A stretch of DNA of 29,711 nucleotides from a virus. Of this stretch, positions 2,666-13,052 are shown one piece after another. The stretch covers positions 1 through 29,711 of IMG/VR virus record IMGVR_UViG_3300042987_000477, one strand, 5' to 3'. Position numbers and translations under genes: made by a program. How positions within the stretch are numbered: position 1 is the first letter of the stretch; each line of letters starts with the position of its first letter. Under the pieces are notes generated by a model that saw nothing but the letters and a program-made list of their open reading frames with translations, was not told where the DNA came from and did not search any database.

Positions 2666-3560
2666 AAAGGAATCCACCTACGGGACCGACAGCACCCCTG
2701 CCGGTACTGACGCCCTGCTGGTGCGCAACCTGGAGATCACCCCAATCGAGGCCGATGTTGTCAGCCGCGACCTGATCCGCAACTACCTCGGCAACAGCCC
2801 GCAGCTGCTGGCCAACAGCCGGGTGAGCATCACCTTCCAGGTGGAACTAGCTGGTTCCGGCACTGCTGGCACGGCGCCCCGCTACGGCGCGCTGCTGCAG
2901 GCTTGCGGCCTGTCGGAGACGATCGTGGCCAGCACCAGCGTCACCTATGCGCCGGTGAGCAGCAGCTTCAGCTCGACCACGATCTACTTCAACAACGACG
3001 GCATCCGCCACATCCTCACCGGCTGCCGCGGCACCTTCACGCTGAACGCCGAAGTGGGTCAGATCCCCACGATCGACTTCACCATGGTCGGTGTCTACAA
3101 CGCCCCGACCGATACGGCGCTGCCCGCCACCACCTACAGCGCACAGGCCAGCCCGCTGATCTTCAAGCAGGGCAACACCTCGGCCTTCCAGTTCTTCAGC
3201 TACGCAGGCTGCCTGCAGTCGGTGTCGTTCGACATCGCAAACGAGACGGTCTACCGCGAGCTGGTGGGCTGCACGAAAGAGGTGATGATCACCAACCGTG
3301 CCCCCAGCGGCACCGTGCTGATCGAGGCTCCTGCTCTGGCGACGAAGGATTACTTCAACCTCGCTCAGACCGAGACCACCGGAAACCTCACCTTCCTGCA
3401 CGGCACCACTGCCGGCAACCGTGTCACCTTCACGGCTGGCCAGTGCGACATCTCGAATCCGTCCTACGCGGATCAGGATGGCGTGCAGATGCTGAGCATC
3501 CCCTACGTTGCCGTTCCGACCACGGCCGGCAATGATGAACTGAGCCTCGCCTTTACCTGA
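2631..3560 (+). CDS. Major tail tube protein
   Basis: 309 aa, MALTRKRLIQVKKESTYGTD. The N-terminus has the 'KR..l.v..E.tyGtd..p.g.dAl.v.n..i.p.e...v.rd..r...G' layout of a siphophage tail tube family. The rest is strand-rich with little charge, including VSITFQVELAGSGTAGTAPRYGALLQACGL, usual for the beta-barrel that stacks in hexameric rings around the tape measure. No extra Ig-like surface domain is evident. It lies two genes before the chaperone pair, as in lambda (V before G/T). AAGCCGAGGAACTGAGCG precedes the ATG, with GAGGAA as ribosome binding site. Confidence 0.88.
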   Translation: MALTRKRLIQVKKESTYGTDSTPAGTDALLVRNLEITPIEADVVSRDLIRNYLGNSPQLLANSRVSITFQVELAGSGTAGTAPRYGALLQACGLSETIVASTSVTYAPVSSSFSSTTIYFNNDGIRHILTGCRGTFTLNAEVGQIPTIDFTMVGVYNAPTDTALPATTYSAQASPLIFKQGNTSAFQFFSYAGCLQSVSFDIANETVYRELVGCTKEVMITNRAPSGTVLIEAPALATKDYFNLAQTETTGNLTFLHGTTAGNRVTFTAGQCDISNPSYADQDGVQMLSIPYVAVPTTAGNDELSLAFT

Positions 3561-3572
3561 TAGGAGCCCTGC

Positions 3573-3932
3573 ATGGCGTTTGTTCTCAAGCAGTCCGACA
3601 CCTACGTCTGGCCGGTCACCTTTGACATTCCCGTCGATGGTGGCCGCCACGAACGGCAAACATTTGACGGTGAGTTCAAACGCCTGCCGCAGAGCCAAGT
3701 CGGCCCGATGGTGGCCGAGCTGACGAAACTCGAGGATCTTGGCGATCTGGATCGCATCACCGAAATCGCGCGTGAGCTGCTGGTGGGCTGGTCCGGTGTG
3801 ACCGGCGACGATGGCAAGGAAGTTCCCTACAGCCAGAAGGCGCTCGACCAGCTGCTCGAGGTGCCGTTCCTCGCGGTGGCGGTGCTGAAGGCGTACATGG
3901 ACAGCATCAAGGGAGCCAAGAGAAAAAACTGA
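3573..3932 (+). CDS. Tail assembly chaperone (lambda gpG-like)
   Basis: 119 aa, MAFVLKQSDTYVWPVTFDIP. It has the size, position (between tail tube and tape measure) and helical C-terminal half of gpG-type chaperones, which coat the tape measure protein during tail assembly. GGAG lies 9 bases before the ATG. Its last codons are AGA AAA AAC TGA, which form an exact -1 slippery heptamer. A fraction of ribosomes should continue into the downstream frame to make a 225-aa G-T fusion. The junction 5' of this gene repeats the sequence ACCTGATAGGAGCC that also follows the capsid gene. Confidence 0.87.
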   Translation: MAFVLKQSDTYVWPVTFDIPVDGGRHERQTFDGEFKRLPQSQVGPMVAELTKLEDLGDLDRITEIARELLVGWSGVTGDDGKEVPYSQKALDQLLEVPFLAVAVLKAYMDSIKGAKRKN

Positions 3933-6535: not shown

Positions 6536-6871
6536 ATGGCGACTTTCACCTACACCCCCAGCTTTGAGGCCACCGAGAGCAGCAAGCCCCGTGTGCGCAG
6601 ATTTCAAGCGGGCGATGGCTACGAGCAGCGCATTCGCTTTGGCCTCCACACCGACCCGAAGGAGTGGAGCCTGACGTTCGCAAACCGCACCGACACCGAG
6701 CGCGACAACATCTTGGCCTTCCTGGAGGCACGCGGCGGCGTCGAGAGCTTCGACTGGACACCTCCCCGCGGCGCCGCTGGCAAATACGTTTGCGAGGAGT
6801 GGCAGACCACGCTCAGCAACTGCAACAATAACCAGATACAGGCAACATTCCGGGAGGTCTACGAGCCATGA
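6536..6871 (+). CDS. Minor tail protein M-like
   Basis: 111 aa, MATFTYTPSFEATESSKPRV. The pattern 'F.y.Ps......sskPrv....fGDGYeqR...Gln...ewsltf...t..e...I..Fl.ar.G..sF.wtPP', with the segment SFDWTPPRG, is characteristic of lambda gpM and its relatives, which act at the tail tip as part of the initiator complex. It starts 2 bases after the tape measure stop and ends in an ATGA overlap with the next gene. The order tape measure, M, (small gene), L, K, I, J is that of lambda. Confidence 0.88.
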   Translation: MATFTYTPSFEATESSKPRVRRFQAGDGYEQRIRFGLHTDPKEWSLTFANRTDTERDNILAFLEARGGVESFDWTPPRGAAGKYVCEEWQTTLSNCNNNQIQATFREVYEP

Positions 6872-7254
6872 GCACCATCGTCACCAGGGCTGGCAAAGGC
6901 AGTGCGCTAACGCACGCCGAGGTGGATGCCAATTTCACAAACCTTGGCTACTCAATTCCTGACAGTGCGCTGCAAGTAGCAACGCCCACAACCGGCACAA
7001 CTGTGACGGTAAATGACAACGCTGCCGCGCTAATTCTCAAGCACACCGCCACCATCGCAACGCTGACCATCGTTCTGCCGGCAAGTCCGGCAAACGGTCA
7101 AATTGTTCGCATCGGAACGCGCTCAACGGTCACCACGCTGACGCTAAACGCAAACACCGGGCAAACACGCTACGGCAACCCAACAACGATCACAGCAACA
7201 ACCCCCGTCGCCTTCATCTATGAGGCGGCAACACTCAGCTGGTATCGCGTCTGA
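6868..7254 (+). CDS. Small tail-tip-associated protein with 'THAEVDANFTNL' motif
   Basis: 128 aa, MSTIVTRAGKGSALTHAEVDANFTNLGYSI. The motif 'RaGKGs.LTHaEvDaNFtNL' is common at the N-terminus of phage tail fibre and tip proteins and probably attaches them to the tail. The rest is Thr/Ala-rich and strand-like (TPTTGTTVTVNDNAAALILKH; ANGQIVRIGTRSTVTTLTLN) and ends with an aromatic YEAATLSWYRV strand. This 'values, zero baseline, resulting shape' layout is seen in phage-surface beta domains. Lambda has no gene here, so it is an insertion between M and L. Function is unknown; a small decoration or receptor-contact role is a guess. Confidence 0.75.
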   Translation: MSTIVTRAGKGSALTHAEVDANFTNLGYSIPDSALQVATPTTGTTVTVNDNAAALILKHTATIATLTIVLPASPANGQIVRIGTRSTVTTLTLNANTGQTRYGNPTTITATTPVAFIYEAATLSWYRV

Positions 7255-8042
7255 TGGCTGTCCAAGACCTCTACGTTGTCGAAGGTTATTGGGCAGTCGG
7301 CTATGCCGTCGGTGACGGCTGGGTTTATCCCACCTCTGAGCTGCAGGGCATTGCGCCCAGTGCTGTCATCGAGCTGTTTGAGCTGGAGTTGAACACAGCG
7401 CAGCACGGCGCCAACGACATTTACCGCTTCCACGCTGGCAGCAACATGAACGCCAACGGCGAGCTGCTGTGGGCTGGCAACAGCTATCTGCGGTTTCCGG
7501 TCGAGGCGGATGGCTTTGAATACACCGGCAACGGCCAGCTGCCGCGGCCCAAGCTGCGCGCAAGCAACATCCTCGGCACCATCACTGCCATTTTGCTGAG
7601 CCTGCCTGAAGGACTGGAGGGCGCCAAGTTCACCCGCATCCGCACGCTGGCGCGCTATTTGGACGCCGGCAACTTCGCCGGTGGCGTCAACCCCTACGGC
7701 ACACCAGACCCGACTGCCGAGTTCCCGCGAGAGATCTACTACATCGACAGGAAGACCGCCGAGACGCGCGATGTGGTGGAGTTTGAGCTGGCGGCAGCGT
7801 TCGATTTGGCTGGCGTGCGCGCACCGAAGCGGCAGTGCATCGGCAACATTTGCCAATGGGAGTACCGCTCGGTGGAGTGCAGCTACACCGGCAGCAGCTA
7901 CTGGGATGAAAACGACAACGTGGTGACCACGCTGGCGGCAGACGTGTGCGGCAAGAAGCTGAGCAGCTGCAAACTGCGGTTTGGCCAGACCGCTGAGCTG
8001 CCATTCGGCTCTTATCCCGGCATCGGAGCCTATTTCGCATGA
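7254..8042 (+). CDS. Minor tail protein L-like (Fe-S tail-tip protein) with N-terminal extension
   Basis: 262 aa. Residues 1-25 ([22 protein letters not shown]) form a small extra module. From about residue 35 it follows lambda gp[10 protein letters not shown], a strand-rich N-domain with [17 protein letters not shown], then [20 protein letters not shown]. The Cys-rich C-terminal region has Cys at 195, 200, 209, 232 and 239; gpL coordinates an iron-sulfur cluster there at the tip of the tail. It overlaps its neighbours on both sides by ATGA. Functional identity with gpL is well supported; cluster binding is inferred from the conserved cysteines. Confidence 0.9.
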
Positions 8043-8761
8043 CCTGGCGCGCAGCAGCACTAGAGCACGCAAAGGCAGAAGATCCCCGCGAAGCCTGCGG
8101 CCTGCTGGTGGTCGTCAAGGGGCGCCGGCGTTACTGGCGGTGCCGCAACCTGGCGGCAGGCACCGAGCAGTTCATCCTGGATCCGCTGGACTTTGCTGCA
8201 GCCGAAGACGCGGGCGAGATCTTGGCGGTGGTCCACAGCCATCCCGTCACCCCGCCAGTGCCGAGCCAGGCCGACCTGCTGGCCATCGAACGCACCGCGT
8301 TGCCTTGGTACATCGTCAACCCTAAGACCGAGGCATGGAGCACCAAGCTGCAGCCGTGCGGCTACAAGGCGCCGCTGATCGGCCGTGAATGGACGTGGGG
8401 GCTTTCCGACTGCTGGACGCTGGTGCGGGACTGGTACGCCGAGCAGGGCCTGGAGTTGCTCGACTGGGCGCGACCGCTGACACCTGAGGAGTTTGAGACG
8501 GATCCGCTGTTTGACCGCTACTGGAAGGACGCAGGGTTCCGCGAGCTGGATGAGGACGAGCCACTGAAGCGCGGCGATGCGGTGTTGATGAGCATCAGCG
8601 GGCCGGGCCTCAACCACGTCGGCGTCTACATCGGTGACCAGCTGCTGCTGCATCACATCCGCGGCCGACTGAGCAGCCGTGATCTCTACGGCGGTTGGCT
8701 GCAGAAGTGCACTGGCCGCAGGCTCCGGCATTACGATGCAGGGAGGCTAGAGCTGACGTGA
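8039..8761 (+). CDS. Tail assembly protein K-like: JAMM metalloprotease + NlpC/P60 peptidase
   Basis: 240 aa with two domains. Residues 1-105 are a JAB/MPN domain with a complete JAMM signature: Glu18 (REACGLL), His66-Ser-His68-Pro, Ser76 and Asp79. This family is zinc isopeptidase/protease. Residues about 110-235 are an NlpC/P60-type cysteine peptidase with Cys125 ([13 protein letters not shown]), His193 ([11 protein letters not shown]) and a third polar residue at His205/His206. In lambda, gpK is needed for tail-tip assembly and is thought to process partner proteins and/or cut peptidoglycan peptides at entry. All catalytic residues are present, so both activities are plausible. The next gene (I-like) carries a ubiquitin-like domain, a natural JAMM substrate. 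Confidence 0.93.
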
Positions 8762-9333
8762 TGCTGCGCACGATCCGCATCTACGGGCGCCTGGCGAAAC
8801 TCCTCAAGCGCCGCAAGTTTGAGGCTGAGGTGGCCAGCGCCGCCGAGGCCGTGCGCTTCCTGCTGGCCAATTTTCCGCAGCTGGAGCCCGAGCTGGCCAA
8901 GGGCCATTACCGTGTCAGCGTTGGCAGCTACGACCTGGCCGAGGACGAGCTGCAGGCGCCGGCCGGCCAGCAGGAGATCAAGATCACCCCGGTGGTGGCA
9001 GGTGCTGGCGCTGTGGGGCGCATCATTGCGGGCGTGGCACTGGTCGCGTTGTCGTTCTTCCTGCCGCCGGTGGCAGGCATTGCGCTCGGCACCATCGCCT
9101 TTGGTGTGGGTGCCAGCTTGGTGCTGGGCGGTGTTGCGCAGCTGCTCACGCCGGTGCCCAGCTTGCCAACCAGCGGCAGCACCGCTGAGACCGCTAAAGA
9201 CCCCCGCAAGTCCTACAGCTTCAGCGGCGTTCAGCAGACCAGCCGCGCCGGTGTGCCGGTGCCCGTCGTCTACGGCGAGACCCTGGTGGGCTCTGTGGTG
9301 ATCTCGGCCGGCATCGACACGGTGCAGACATGA
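8761..9333 (+). CDS. Tail assembly protein I-like with ubiquitin-like N-terminal domain
   Basis: 190 aa from the ATG overlapping the K stop (TGATG), preferred to an upstream start that would run through K. Residues 1-82 have the beta-grasp layout ([64 protein letters not shown]). This domain has been described as ubiquitin-like in lambda gpI relatives. Residues about 83-130 are Gly/Ala-rich hydrophobic helices (GRIIAGVALVALSFFLPP, GVGASLVLGGVAQLL). A conserved C-terminal segment follows (SFSGVQQTSRAGVPVPVVYGE). GpI is required for tail-tip assembly but is not found in mature lambda tails. The Gly-Ala-Gly after the beta-grasp fold is a candidate cleavage point for K. Confidence 0.9.
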   Translation: MLRTIRIYGRLAKLLKRRKFEAEVASAAEAVRFLLANFPQLEPELAKGHYRVSVGSYDLAEDELQAPAGQQEIKITPVVAGAGAVGRIIAGVALVALSFFLPPVAGIALGTIAFGVGASLVLGGVAQLLTPVPSLPTSGSTAETAKDPRKSYSFSGVQQTSRAGVPVPVVYGETLVGSVVISAGIDTVQT

Positions 9334-12300
9334 ACAGGATCGTCGGCGCAGGTGGTGGCGGTGGCGGCGGCGGGTGCTTCTTAGGGCACACGCTGGTGCG
9401 CACGCCTGACGGGTTGCGCGCCATCGAGGCGCTGGAGCCTGGCGACCAGGTGCTGAGCTTTGACGACCAGGGAGAGCTGCACCAGGCCGCGGTGCTGAAG
9501 GTCCACGTCCACGAAAACGAGCGCGTAGTCCGCTACCGCCTCTGGGGCGGTGCCGTGCTCGATGCCACCCCGAACCACTGGGTGCTCAACCAGTTCAACG
9601 CCTTTGTTGAGATCGGCACGCTGGGCGCAGACGACTGCCTGGTGGATGAGAACGGCCACCTGCGGCCCATCGTTGAGCGCACCGACCACGGCCGCGGCAC
9701 TGTCTACAACCTGACGGTCGAAGGCCACCACACCTTCATCGCCGGCGGCATCCGTGTGCACAACGCCGGCCTGGGCCTGGGCATCGCCGGCGCAGGCGGT
9801 GGAGGTGGCGGTGGCGGCAAGGGCGGAGGTGGCGGCGGCGGCACCACCTACACCCCGACCGAAGCGGGCGACACGCTCAACAGCACTCAATACGCCAACC
9901 TGGTTGACCTGATCAGCGAGGGGGAGATCGAGGGCCTCAAGGATGGCCACAAGTCGATCTTCATCGACAACACTCCGCTGCAGAACGCAGACGGTTCCTA
10001 CAACTTCCAGAACGTCACCGTCACCACGCGGACGGGCACACAAAACCAGAGCTACATCCCCATCGCGGCTGATGTTGAAAACGAGCAGCCGGTCAGCGTC
10101 CAGGTGCAGTTCGGCACCCCGATTGTCCGCAGCATTACCAGCACCACCGTCAACGCCGCACGGGTGACCATCACGGTGCCGGCGTTGCAGGAGTTTGCCA
10201 GTAACGGCGACATCAACGGCTCTAGCTTCGGCTTGCAGATCGAGGTGCAATACAACGGCGGCGGCTACACCACGGTCCTGACCGATACGGTCTCCGGCCG
10301 CAGCGGTGATCAGTTCCAGCGCGACTACCTGGTCAGCCTGAGCGGCGCCTATCCCATTGACATCCGCGTGTCGCGGACCACGGCCGACAGCGGCAGCGCC
10401 AAGATCCAGAACGCCTTCAGCTGGTCGAGCTACACCGAGATCACCTACGCCAAGCTCCGCTACCCCAACAGCGCGCTGGTGGCGCTCCGCGTCGATGCCG
10501 AGCAGTTCAACTCCATCCCGCGCCGCAGCTACCTGATCCGCGGCATCAAGGTGGTGATTCCCAGCAATGCCACGGTGGACACGACTACCGGCCGGCTGAT
10601 CTATGCCGGCATCTGGGATGGCACCTTTGGAGCTGCAGCTTGGACCACCGACCCCTGCTGGATCCTCTGGGATCTGCTGACATCGACCCGATACGGCTTC
10701 GGTGATCACATCCAGGCGGCGCAGCTGGACAAGTGGGCGTTTTATGCCGCATCGGTCTATGCCTCGGCCTTGGTGCCCGATGGTTTTGGTGGCAGCGAGC
10801 CCCGCTTTAGCTGCAACGTCAACATCCAGACCGCTGAGGACGCCTACAAGCTGATCAACGACATGTGCTCGGTGTTCCGGGCCATGCCCTATTCGAGCAC
10901 CGGGGCGCTCACCGTCAGCCAGGATGCGCCGGCCGATCCGGCCTATCTGTTCACCTACGCGAACGTCTCGGAGGAGGGCTTCAGCTACCAAGGCGGCAGC
11001 CTCAAAACCCGTCCGACCGTGGCGGTGGTCAGCTACCTGAACCTCGACACCCGCGACATCGACTACGAGGTGGTGGAGGACCAAGAGGCGATCAGCAAGT
11101 ACGGCGTCGTCACCCGCGAGATCTCCGCCTTTGCCTGCACCAGCCGCGGCCAAGCGCACCGCCTGGGTGAGTGGCTGCTGTATTCGGAGTGGTACGAGAA
11201 CGAGGTGGTCAGCTTCACCGCCAGCATCGACGCGGGCGTGCTGGTGCGGCCAGGGCAGATCATCGAGATCAGCGATCCGATGCGCGCCGGCGCCCGCCGA
11301 GGTGGCCGCATCAGTTCCGCAACCACGGCCAACATCACGGTGGACGACGCCACGGGCCTGGCGCTAGGCACCGGCGCAACGCTGTCGGTGATCCTGCCCG
11401 ATGGCGCCGTGCAGAGCCGAGCGGTGGCCGCAATCAGCGGCAGCGTGCTCACCGTCAGTCCGGCGTTCACCACGGCGCCGAACGCCAACAGCATTTGGAT
11501 CTACCAGACCAACACGCTGCAGACCTCCACTTGGCGCGTGTTGAGCGTGCAGGAGCAGGAGGGCGCTCAGTACGCCATCGGCGCCCTGGCCTACAACGCC
11601 AGCAAATACGGCTACATCGAGCGGAACCTGACCCTGCAAACGCGGGACGTTACCGACCTGAACGAGATTCCGGCGGCGCCGGCCAACATGCAGGCCACTG
11701 AGGCGCTGTACGAAAGCAACGGCCGCGCGCTGTCCAAGCTGGTGATCAGCTGGCAGGCAGTGCTGGGCGTCAACCAATACCGCATCCGTTGGAAGCCACA
11801 GAACGGCAACTGGACAACAACAACGCAGACCCGACTGGATTACGAGATCCTTGACACCGTTGCCGGCCGCTACGAGGTCGAGGTCTACAGCATCAACGCG
11901 GGCCTCAAACAATCAACGCAGCCGGCCCGGTTGACCGTTGAAGCACGCGGCAAGACGGCTGCACCGGCGGATGTGACCGGCTTGTCATTGATTGCTATTG
12001 ATGAAGCAAGCGCAATCCTTACATGGGATCCCACCACTGATCTTGATGTGCGAATTGGCGGCAAAGTCCTGATCCGCCATAGCACTGTGCTCGTGGGCGC
12101 CACATGGGAGGAGTCGCAGGAGATCGTCCCCAGCGTTGGCGGCAATCAAACCCAGAAGCAGGTCCCGGTTCTTGAAGGCACCTATCTGGTCAAGTTCCAG
12201 GATGACTCCGGCAATCGCTCGGTCAATGCCGCAACCGTTGTGGTCGATCTGCCAACACCGCAGCCACGCCTGCTGGTGCAGAGCTACCGCGAGGACCAAG

Positions 12301-13052
12301 AGACGCCGCCGTTCTCGGGGAACTTGACCGACATGTTCTACAGCGCCGAGCAGGACGGCTTGGTGATCAGCACCGGCCTGGACGTGGACGACATGGCTAC
12401 GGACGGCGACTGGGATGCGCTTGGCACGATTGACGGCGTTGGCGGCGTGCTGAGTTCTGGCGAGTACGAGTTCGGCAGCACCCTCGACCTAGGTGGCACG
12501 TTTGATCTCAACCTCACCCGCTATTTCGTCACAAGGCCCTACCTGCCAGGCAGCTTGTGGGACGACAAGCTGGGGGACATCGATACCTGGCCCGCTATTG
12601 ATGAAACCAACCTCGATGGCGTGAACGCGCTGCTCTACGTTCGCGCCACCGCCGACAACCCGGCAGGCACCCCAACTTGGAGCACCTGGCGCGAGTTCTC
12701 GAACGTGATCACTCGCGGGCGTGGCTTCCAGTTCAAGGTGATCGCCACCAGCTCCGACCCTGCGCAGAACATCATCGTGGACGAACTGGGTTGCGAAGTG
12801 GAGCTGCAGCAGAGGACAGAACAGTCGGGCACCTTGACAAGCACCGCCGCAACGTATGCAGTGACGTTTGCTGACGCCTTCTATCAGGCACCTTCCATCG
12901 GCGTCACAGCGTTCAACATGGTGACCGGCGATTACTTTGAGGTGGCAAGCGTGACCAGGGCAGGATTCCAGGTAACCTTTAGGAATAGCGGCGGCTCTGC
13001 CGTGGCTCGCCAGTTCACTTACACTGCTATCGGATACGGCCGGGAGATCTGA
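9330..13052 (+). CDS. Tail tip / host specificity protein J-like with N-terminal Hint (intein-like) domain
   Basis: 1240 aa. Residues 1-15 are a short leader ending in eight Gly. Residues 16-145 are a Hint domain (see separate entry). Residues 152-171 are Gly-rich (eight Gly, Lys, seven Gly). From about 172 the protein follows lambda gpJ (TPTEAGDTLNSTQYANLVDL, ISEGEIEGLKDGHKSIFIDN, then VQFGTPIVRSITSTTVNAAR; later TDPCWILWDLLTSTRYGFG and VSEEGFSYQGGSLKTRPTVA). Two fibronectin-III-like domains lie at about 780-870 and 873-970, and a divergent C-terminal region at 975-1240 probably contacts the host. In lambda, J starts at the 'GKG...TPREA' segment, so the leader and Hint domain are an addition. 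It forms the trimeric tip that recognises the receptor. Start overlaps the I-like gene (ATGA). Confidence 0.93.
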   Translation: MNRIVGAGGGGGGGGCFLGHTLVRTPDGLRAIEALEPGDQVLSFDDQGELHQAAVLKVHVHENERVVRYRLWGGAVLDATPNHWVLNQFNAFVEIGTLGADDCLVDENGHLRPIVERTDHGRGTVYNLTVEGHHTFIAGGIRVHNAGLGLGIAGAGGGGGGGGKGGGGGGGTTYTPTEAGDTLNSTQYANLVDLISEGEIEGLKDGHKSIFIDNTPLQNADGSYNFQNVTVTTRTGTQNQSYIPIAADVENEQPVSVQVQFGTPIVRSITSTTVNAARVTITVPALQEFASNGDINGSSFGLQIEVQYNGGGYTTVLTDTVSGRSGDQFQRDYLVSLSGAYPIDIRVSRTTADSGSAKIQNAFSWSSYTEITYAKLRYPNSALVALRVDAEQFNSIPRRSYLIRGIKVVIPSNATVDTTTGRLIYAGIWDGTFGAAAWTTDPCWILWDLLTSTRYGFGDHIQAAQLDKWAFYAASVYASALVPDGFGGSEPRFSCNVNIQTAEDAYKLINDMCSVFRAMPYSSTGALTVSQDAPADPAYLFTYANVSEEGFSYQGGSLKTRPTVAVVSYLNLDTRDIDYEVVEDQEAISKYGVVTREISAFACTSRGQAHRLGEWLLYSEWYENEVVSFTASIDAGVLVRPGQIIEISDPMRAGARRGGRISSATTANITVDDATGLALGTGATLSVILPDGAVQSRAVAAISGSVLTVSPAFTTAPNANSIWIYQTNTLQTSTWRVLSVQEQEGAQYAIGALAYNASKYGYIERNLTLQTRDVTDLNEIPAAPANMQATEALYESNGRALSKLVISWQAVLGVNQYRIRWKPQNGNWTTTTQTRLDYEILDTVAGRYEVEVYSINAGLKQSTQPARLTVEARGKTAAPADVTGLSLIAIDEASAILTWDPTTDLDVRIGGKVLIRHSTVLVGATWEESQEIVPSVGGNQTQKQVPVLEGTYLVKFQDDSGNRSVNAATVVVDLPTPQPRLLVQSYREDQETPPFSGNLTDMFYSAEQDGLVISTGLDVDDMATDGDWDALGTIDGVGGVLSSGEYEFGSTLDLGGTFDLNLTRYFVTRPYLPGSLWDDKLGDIDTWPAIDETNLDGVNALLYVRATADNPAGTPTWSTWREFSNVITRGRGFQFKVIATSSDPAQNIIVDELGCEVELQQRTEQSGTLTSTAATYAVTFADAFYQAPSIGVTAFNMVTGDYFEVASVTRAGFQVTFRNSGGSAVARQFTYTAIGYGREI
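9339..9374 (+). repeat. Direct repeat copy 1, 5' of the Hint coding region
   Basis: 36 bp coding Ile-Val-Gly-Ala-Gly8, ending exactly before the Cys codon of the Hint domain. It matches the copy at 9783-9818 at 31 of 36 positions, in the same reading frame, 444 bp away. The unequal Gly codons mean some likeness could be convergent low complexity. Confidence 0.75.
9375..9764 (+). other. Hint domain, bacterial intein-like type (residues 16-145 of J-like protein)
   Basis: 130 residues with all Hint blocks and no homing endonuclease. Block A is CFLGHTLVRTPDGLRAIEAL followed by EPGDQVLSFD. Block B has the TPNH motif (ATPNHWVLNQF, residues 79-89). Blocks F/G are VYNLTVEGHHTFIAGG and IRVHN. The first residue is Cys16 and the last two are His144-Asn145. 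The next residue is Ala146, not Cys, Ser or Thr, so canonical splicing lacks its C-extein nucleophile. This combination is that of bacterial intein-like (BIL) domains, which mainly self-cleave at one or both ends and splice only weakly. Expected here: N-terminal thioester formation at Cys16 and Asn145 cyclisation, releasing J with a Gly-rich N-terminus. Confidence 0.9.
9783..9818 (+). repeat. Direct repeat copy 2, 3' of the Hint coding region
   Basis: 36 bp coding Ile-Ala-Gly-Ala-Gly8, 31 of 36 bases identical with 9339-9374. It lies 18 bases after the Hint Asn codon and is followed by Lys and seven more Gly. It looks like the original J N-terminal Gly stretch, of which copy 1 would be a duplicate. 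Confidence 0.75.

Follow-up and report, generated by a model that had tools for sequence, protein, structure and literature searches.

The association of the tail genes K and I, together with the prediction that the K protein frees the ubiquitin-like domain, was described in 2006 (PMC1779556), and a meeting report of 2025 states that gpK of phage lambda cuts the ubiquitin-like domain off gpI (PMC12908700). Hint domains have been described in several further systems. Type A bacterial intein-like domains (BILs), which end in His-Asn and have no +1 nucleophile, mostly cleave and can also splice when the amine set free attacks the thioester (PMC4031507, PMC7664689), a proposed role of the HINT domain in polymorphic toxins is to free the domain behind it (PMC3482391), and inteins have been named in proteins other than J (PMC7468147, PMC6293099, PMC7156551, PMC3556154, PMC12613952). 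Here we report on genes K, I and J of a virus record of 29,711 bases (IMG/VR record IMGVR_UViG_3300042987_000477, the whole of which is called the window), in which a Hint domain of 130 residues is set before the ordinary gpJ body. We assessed its likeness to known domains, its distribution among relatives and its relation to K and I, and we consider it probable that this domain removes itself from J, K and I forming a separate module.

The locus resembles that of lambda in its gene order (i.e. M, an extra gene, L, K, I, J), in the JAMM and NlpC domains of K, in the ubiquitin-like domain of I and in gpJ as the hub. It differs in the Hint, which the passages of PMC10721106 on gpJ domains do not mention for the lambda protein. 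Successive genes overlap, the ATG of I lying on the TGA of K and J overlapping I via ATGA. The features are the following:

8039..8761, + strand: gene K, tail assembly protein with JAMM (JAB) metalloprotease and NlpC/P60 domains (Pfam Prok-JAB 1.5e-15, NLPC_P60 7.1e-15; phrog_30 2e-85)
8090..8275, + strand: JAMM residues of K, from the translation (Glu18 8090-8092, His66 8234-8236, His68 8240-8242, Ser76 8264-8266, Asp79 8273-8275)
8761..9333, + strand: gene I, tail tip insertion protein with an N-terminal ubiquitin-like domain (phrog_32, tail assembly protein, 1.6e-48)
8761..9000, + strand: MoaD/SAMP-type ubiquitin-like domain of I, residues 1-80 (AlphaFold2 model; VIA-align)
8989..9009, + strand: PVVAGAG tail behind the ubiquitin-like fold, I residues 77-83, predicted K cleavage region (alignment of I proteins)
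9330..13052, + strand: gene J, central tail fibre/hub protein with N-terminal Hint insert (phrog_31 2.3e-245 from residue 163; FNIII-A_GpJ 2.6e-37)
9330..9374, + strand: 15-residue J leader with the first copy of an I-x-Gly-Ala-Gly-Gly motif (direct reading; 66 distinct rows compared)
9339..9373, + strand: first copy of a 35-nucleotide direct repeat flanking the Hint (repeat comparison)
9375..9764, + strand: Hint (BIL-like) domain, J residues 16-145, from Cys16 to His144-Asn145 (PT-HINT 1.1e-10; intein_Cterm; model; fold search)
9765..9842, + strand: Gly-rich stretch behind the Hint, from Ala146, with the second motif copy (direct reading)
9783..9817, + strand: second copy of the direct repeat, 89% (repeat comparison)

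A first-pass annotation of the window had proposed an intact JAMM centre in K, a ubiquitin-like beta-grasp domain followed by Gly-Ala-Gly at the start of I, and a Hint at the start of J, and all three domains are real. For the Hint, PT-HINT was the best Pfam match, the NCBIfam model intein_Cterm scored 23.2 bits (cut-off 15.6), and the AlphaFold2 model reached a predicted local distance difference test (pLDDT) of 93-98 per ten-residue block over residues 21-140. The top matches in the PDB were BIL domains (Foldseek: 6y75 at E 1.3e-11 and 2lwy at 1.3e-10; phmmer: 2lwy at 3e-10), identity to BIL structures in the structural alignments being only 24-29%. The top viral structural match was A0A218MKA3, 'Putative gp62 [uncultured virus]'; such sequences may therefore be in databases already.

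Like type A BILs (C. thermocellum BIL, 2LWY; BIL2 of Tetrahymena BUBL1, 6Y75), the J domain has the Hint fold, Cys1 with the TxxH of block B, a His-Asn end and no +1 nucleophile, and its 130 residues are too few for an endonuclease; judged by its sequence, it matches the definition of a type A BIL. Unlike them, it lies within Gly-rich sequence at the very start of a hub protein of the phage tail; BILs are otherwise known from secreted and other proteins. In BUBL loci, a ubiquitin-like domain and a BIL stand in one protein, and the nearest solved fold (6y75) comes from such a locus; here, the two domains belong to separate proteins, of which the ubiquitin-like one is also found without Hint. 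The layout of polymorphic toxins, from which PT-HINT takes its name, was not found: only 15 residues precede the Hint, and it is followed by the J body (FNIII-A_GpJ, Phage-tail_3) and no toxin in all three clades of Hint-bearing J described below. The inteins of phage terminase, helicase, dCTP deaminase and ribonucleotide reductase also bring a Hint fold into phage proteins, but these are enzymes of DNA metabolism or packaging and some of the inteins carry a homing endonuclease. The J Hint has no endonuclease, its +1 residue was Ala or Gly and never Cys, Ser or Thr in all copies read, and its insertion site is the flexible Gly-rich N-terminal tail of gpJ instead of a conserved enzyme site; the last two features set it apart from class 1 inteins.

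In order to assess how the domain is distributed, IMG/VR was scanned with the Hint. The scan yielded 470 relatives, the best 80 of which, as ranked by Hint similarity, were analysed. The J body lay downstream of the Hint in 80/80 (tblastn), and wherever the beginning of the J frame could be read, the Hint followed it closely. As this set had been chosen by the Hint, a second set of 80 loci was taken by similarity to the J body, the two sets sharing contigs. Among these J-selected loci, the Hint was present in 41 and absent in 35, and the remaining 4 start too late to be read. Cys1, TxxH, HN, Gly at -1 and Ala at +1 were present in all 58 distinct Hints of the first clade (i.e. that of the window), and the catalytic residues were intact in the 40 readable Hint copies (40/40) of the J-selected set.

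In most Hint-less J proteins, M and a handful of residues are followed by a hydrophobic-x-Gly-Ala/Ser-Gly-Gly motif, the single copy of which runs directly into a Gly/Lys tract, whereas Hint-bearing J proteins of the first clade carry the motif on both sides of the Hint (in the window, IVGAGG at J residues 4-9 and IAGAGG at residues 152-157), with the same tract behind. The first-pass annotation had noted a hydrophobic-x-Gly-Ala-Gly motif at three places, i.e. behind the ubiquitin-like fold of I and on either side of the Hint. The motif does occur at all three; as it also begins Hint-less J, it is no mark of a block built around the Hint. Matching of the two-sided motif within a phage was weakly above chance and was dropped as evidence (45/65 against 40.9 after shuffling, 188/5,000 shuffles reaching 45; in a second measure of matching between motif copies, 19 against 16.5 expected, 968/5,000 shuffles reaching 19); row L074, 1 of 66, has no leader motif and was omitted from this comparison. 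L074 and L087, which come from one contig, have K, I and the J leader in shifted frames, probably through sequencing or assembly indels, slippage in the Gly-coding repeat being the alternative.

The JAMM site of K (E..HxHx7SxxD) is complete in the window, with Glu18, His66, His68, Ser76 and Asp79, and is kept in relatives. In the J-selected set, it was found in 37/37 readable Hint-bearing loci and in 27/27 readable Hint-less ones; it could not be read in 4 Hint-bearing loci without K sequence, 5 Hint-less loci without K, 3 Hint-less loci whose K ends before the site and the 4 loci of uncertain Hint state. For I, the Pfam search returned no ubiquitin match. The AlphaFold2 model shows a beta-grasp fold that is confident only over about residues 1-80 (pLDDT is below 50 over 131-190), and these residues resemble MoaD and SAMP1 structures (1v8c, Z 10.8, 2.4 A over 78 residues; archaeal SAMP1 4hro, Z 10.3). 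Pro77, Gly81 and Gly83 of the PVVAGAG tail are invariant in 22/22 aligned I proteins, all from Hint-bearing loci, and a simple-pattern search, which missed a few, found the motif in nearly all I proteins of Hint-bearing and Hint-less loci alike. Given the report on lambda gpK and gpI (PMC12908700), the PVVAGAG region is likely to be the K cleavage site, and the action of K on I is supported by agreement with that report and with the prediction of 2006 (PMC1779556). The K-I pair is the known lambda tail-tip pair. One I protein (L159:3021-3965) has about 100 added C-terminal residues, a part that we take to be like a bacterial Ig-like repeat.

Close pairs differing in the Hint were found: J is 91.5% identical over 329 residues between L024 and L120, and L025 and L085, one with and one without Hint, share 97.4% identity over 194 residues of I and 86.9% in J. 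Because the JAMM site is intact in both groups and such pairs exist, the sequences indicate that K and I are not dependent on the Hint; whether the Hint depends on K and I is less clear, since K and I occur in the same element wherever the sequence suffices. An obligate co-occurrence of Hint, JAMM and ubiquitin-like domains fails, 35 of the 76 readable J-selected loci having no Hint. The K-I-J order and the motifs nevertheless recur in the relatives studied and so go beyond chance. As for a suggested survey of the neighbourhoods of Hint-bearing J, no such J was seen beside adjacent K or I genes lacking JAMM or ubiquitin-like domains, but the reverse arrangement was seen (i.e. Hint-less J beside intact K and I), as was a Hint-bearing J separated from both.

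Three divergent clades have the Hint in the Gly-rich N-terminal part of J; in the two clades other than the first, the Hints are 43-49% identical to that of the window. The second clade comprises a contig of an Oxalobacter genome (L156, Hint 49% identical) and three IMG/VR contigs (L157-L159). It has the same catalytic residues, Gly at +1 in the four complete copies and the motif on both sides of the Hint. L156, L158 and L159 have K and I ahead of J, and JAMM and NlpC domains were found in L156 and L158. In this clade the motif behind the Hint (PVVAGSGG and PVIAGAGG in L157/L158) is nearly that of the tail of the ubiquitin-like domain of I (PVIKGSGG), a likeness which may reflect a shared origin or a shared use of both linkers. 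The third clade comprises two cyanobacterial genomes (L163/L167 and L164/L168), with a Hint 43% identical to that of the window, the same catalytic residues, Gly at +1 in both copies and one motif copy, i.e. IKGSGGGG or a variant, then the Hint, then GGGGKSG. In both genomes the gene upstream of J is in the opposite orientation, and J is not next to K or I. IMG/VR record G788 (94,657 bases), which is the same prophage as L167, has I and K at about 32-34 kb and J at about 90 kb, so that K and I, in which a JAMM-like motif and PVIAGSG are present, lie some 57 kb from the Hint-bearing J. No I was found in the second cyanobacterial genome (L164/L168), whose J contig has only 5,897 bases. A Hint profile matched 1 of 399 genomes in the order of the L156 genome and 5 of 388 in the class of the L155 genome (E 1e-12), three of the latter being Hint-bearing J (L161, L163, L164); a further match in that class, L165, was rejected as a different protein. 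A scan of genome contigs with strict patterns gave 2 loci.

Gain and loss of the Hint were followed on a tree built by a quick method from 92 J bodies. The tree requires 10 changes of state, or 11 when L110 is included, a case that is uncertain as its contig begins within the Gly tract; at least 4 changes are forced by well-supported branches. Mean protein identity of the Hint was 0.79 where that of J was 0.53, and identity at fourfold sites was 0.40 for the Hint against 0.34 for J, 0.37 for K and 0.35 for I, mostly on loci selected by Hint similarity. Since protein identity stays high while fourfold-site identity is near that of its neighbours, the Hint protein appears to be held by selection; the same fourfold-site result gives no general sign that the Hint has spread by recent transfer, and we reject such spread as the rule. 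Over 1,953 pairs, which are not independent, fourfold-site identity was higher in the Hint in 87 and lower in 18 at p<0.01. Single pairs do show contrasts, namely L018/L042 (Hint 0.82 against J 0.31 at fourfold sites) and L064/L115 (synonymous identity of 0.57 in the Hint against 0.86 in J), which point to recombination at the borders of the Hint in these pairs.

The reading that we hold to be probable is that J loses the Hint through its self-removal in cis, that K and I are a separate module, and that the Hint is a cassette gained and lost by recombination. Once folded, the Hint would excise as follows. With the aid of the block B T-x-x-H, Cys16 would take over the leader as a thioester (N-S shift), and His144 would help Asn145 to cyclise and cut before Ala146. 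Given that no +1 nucleophile is present, cleaved products should dominate; a minor ligation of leader to J may occur as in type A BILs, the freed amine of Ala or Gly attacking the thioester, and the junction residues (Gly, and Ala or Gly) appear unhindered, which would suit such an attack. After either outcome, J would start with the usual Gly-rich sequence seen in its Hint-less relatives and would be fit for the tail tip. Splicing would restore the standard J start in clade 3, with its single motif copy, and the two copies of clades 1 and 2 would suit cleavage as well. In the separate module, K would trim the ubiquitin-like domain off I and would be dispensable for J. Gain and loss of the cassette would be helped by the flanking Gly-rich repeats, recombination of the 35-nucleotide copies being expected to excise the Hint and leave a J start of the Hint-less type. 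We lean towards a tolerated self-removing insert, for which a secondary timing role is possible.

Several points weigh against this reading. Simple splicing does not need the motif on both sides of the Hint that clades 1 and 2 carry, and the direct repeat was examined in the window alone. The constancy of the catalytic residues is partly due to the choice of loci by similarity, and purifying selection on these residues cannot tell a useful domain from a selfish one. Finally, cleavage is predicted, and the same residues could serve a slow or conditional chemistry.

The first-pass annotation had seen in K, I and J a three-gene maturation block in which the JAMM protease of K cuts I past its ubiquitin-like fold and J at both Gly-Ala-Gly motifs. 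The overlapping genes, the presence of the motif at all three places and the likeness in clade 2 of the J motif (PVVAGSGG, PVIAGAGG) to that of I (PVIKGSGG) would agree with it. The distribution does not: in the 27 readable loci (of 35 Hint-less among the 80 J-selected), a J without Hint has the same K and I beside it, JAMM and I motif being intact, and in clade 3 the Hint-bearing J is away from K and I, so that a three-gene unit is not supported. Nor does the notion that K cuts all three sites fare better, as the J sites do not lie behind a ubiquitin-like fold, the motif is general to J and the Hint has its own full set of predicted self-cleavage residues, for which no protease would be needed. 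We regard this block as very unlikely. An inert structural Hint that stays on J in the virion is, in our view, very unlikely too. It would agree with the fact that processing of J is so far predicted from sequence alone, but all 58 distinct copies keep their catalytic residues, which is unexpected of an inert domain, and three extra domains would presumably have to be housed at the gpJ-gpL-gpI contact. In lambda, the N-terminal region of gpJ pairs with the C-terminal domain of gpL and touches gpI, so that an uncut Hint would probably be in the way there.

The same contact could instead make the Hint a timed switch, masking the N-terminus of J until the tail tip forms, its self-removal running parallel to the trimming of I by K. 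The N-terminal region of lambda gpJ and the C-terminal domain of gpL form the HDII-insertion domain contacted by gpI (PMC10721106), and gpK is reported to cut gpI only once gpI has met other tip proteins (PMC12908700); one Hint site kept across three divergent clades would fit as well. However, relatives as close as the L024/L120 pair do without the Hint while retaining K and I, and no sign of conditional processing was seen, and we hold such an assembly checkpoint to be doubtful. A bolder variant, in which the Hint is an enzyme-free ligation device, would transfer the thioester-activated leader to an amine on J itself or on an adjacent tip protein, and the resulting covalent joint in the tail tip would be timed with the removal of the ubiquitin-like domain of I by K. 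The leader of J ends in Gly, as a ubiquitin tail does; we give this variant little credence.

A Hint in J is apparently undescribed so far. When three Hint queries were compared by tblastn with 50,697 phage records, 24, 14 and 33 records matched, and no J was among the matches listed, the J query itself matching 1,524 phage records. The listed matches, together with L189 and L190, were inteins of helicases and other enzymes, an RHS-type toxin, a small Hint protein, one tape measure and proteins with uninformative names. Searches of the open-licence PMC literature, some of them aimed at J and tail fibres, yielded no account of gpJ with a Hint or intein.

If self-removal is correct, a self-processing intein-like domain is kept at one tail hub site in phages from environmental samples, cyanobacteria and Oxalobacter, and this site is outside the enzyme sites usual for phage inteins. 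Close phages with and without Hint offer a natural test of a role in assembly, and the locus provides a short BIL-type domain with Gly and Ala/Gly junctions. It further bears on the processing of J in phages that are hardly cultured, J being a target of bacterial defence systems (PMC11364771).

The window phage is probably a cyanobacterial phage, and the sequence makes a picocyanobacterial host likely. Its GC content is 59-66%, the nearest cultured DNA is that of Synechococcus phage S-CBS1 (72.6% over 2760-3616), the best matches of the capsid protein are in Roseobacter and Synechococcus phages (31-35%), and a contig of a cyanobacterial metagenome-assembled genome holds one Hint relative at 88%. 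No gene annotated as J was present in the stretches viewed of S-CBS1 and S-LBS1. The extra gene between M and L (6868-7254) encodes 128 residues, with only a weak Pfam match to a StcE beta-sandwich (0.0016, below cut-off). At the left end, the protein at 4-1578 has matches both among families of major head proteins and in a head-and-protease family (phrog_617, phrog_4523); it may be a capsid protein whose protease part is cut off by the end of the record.

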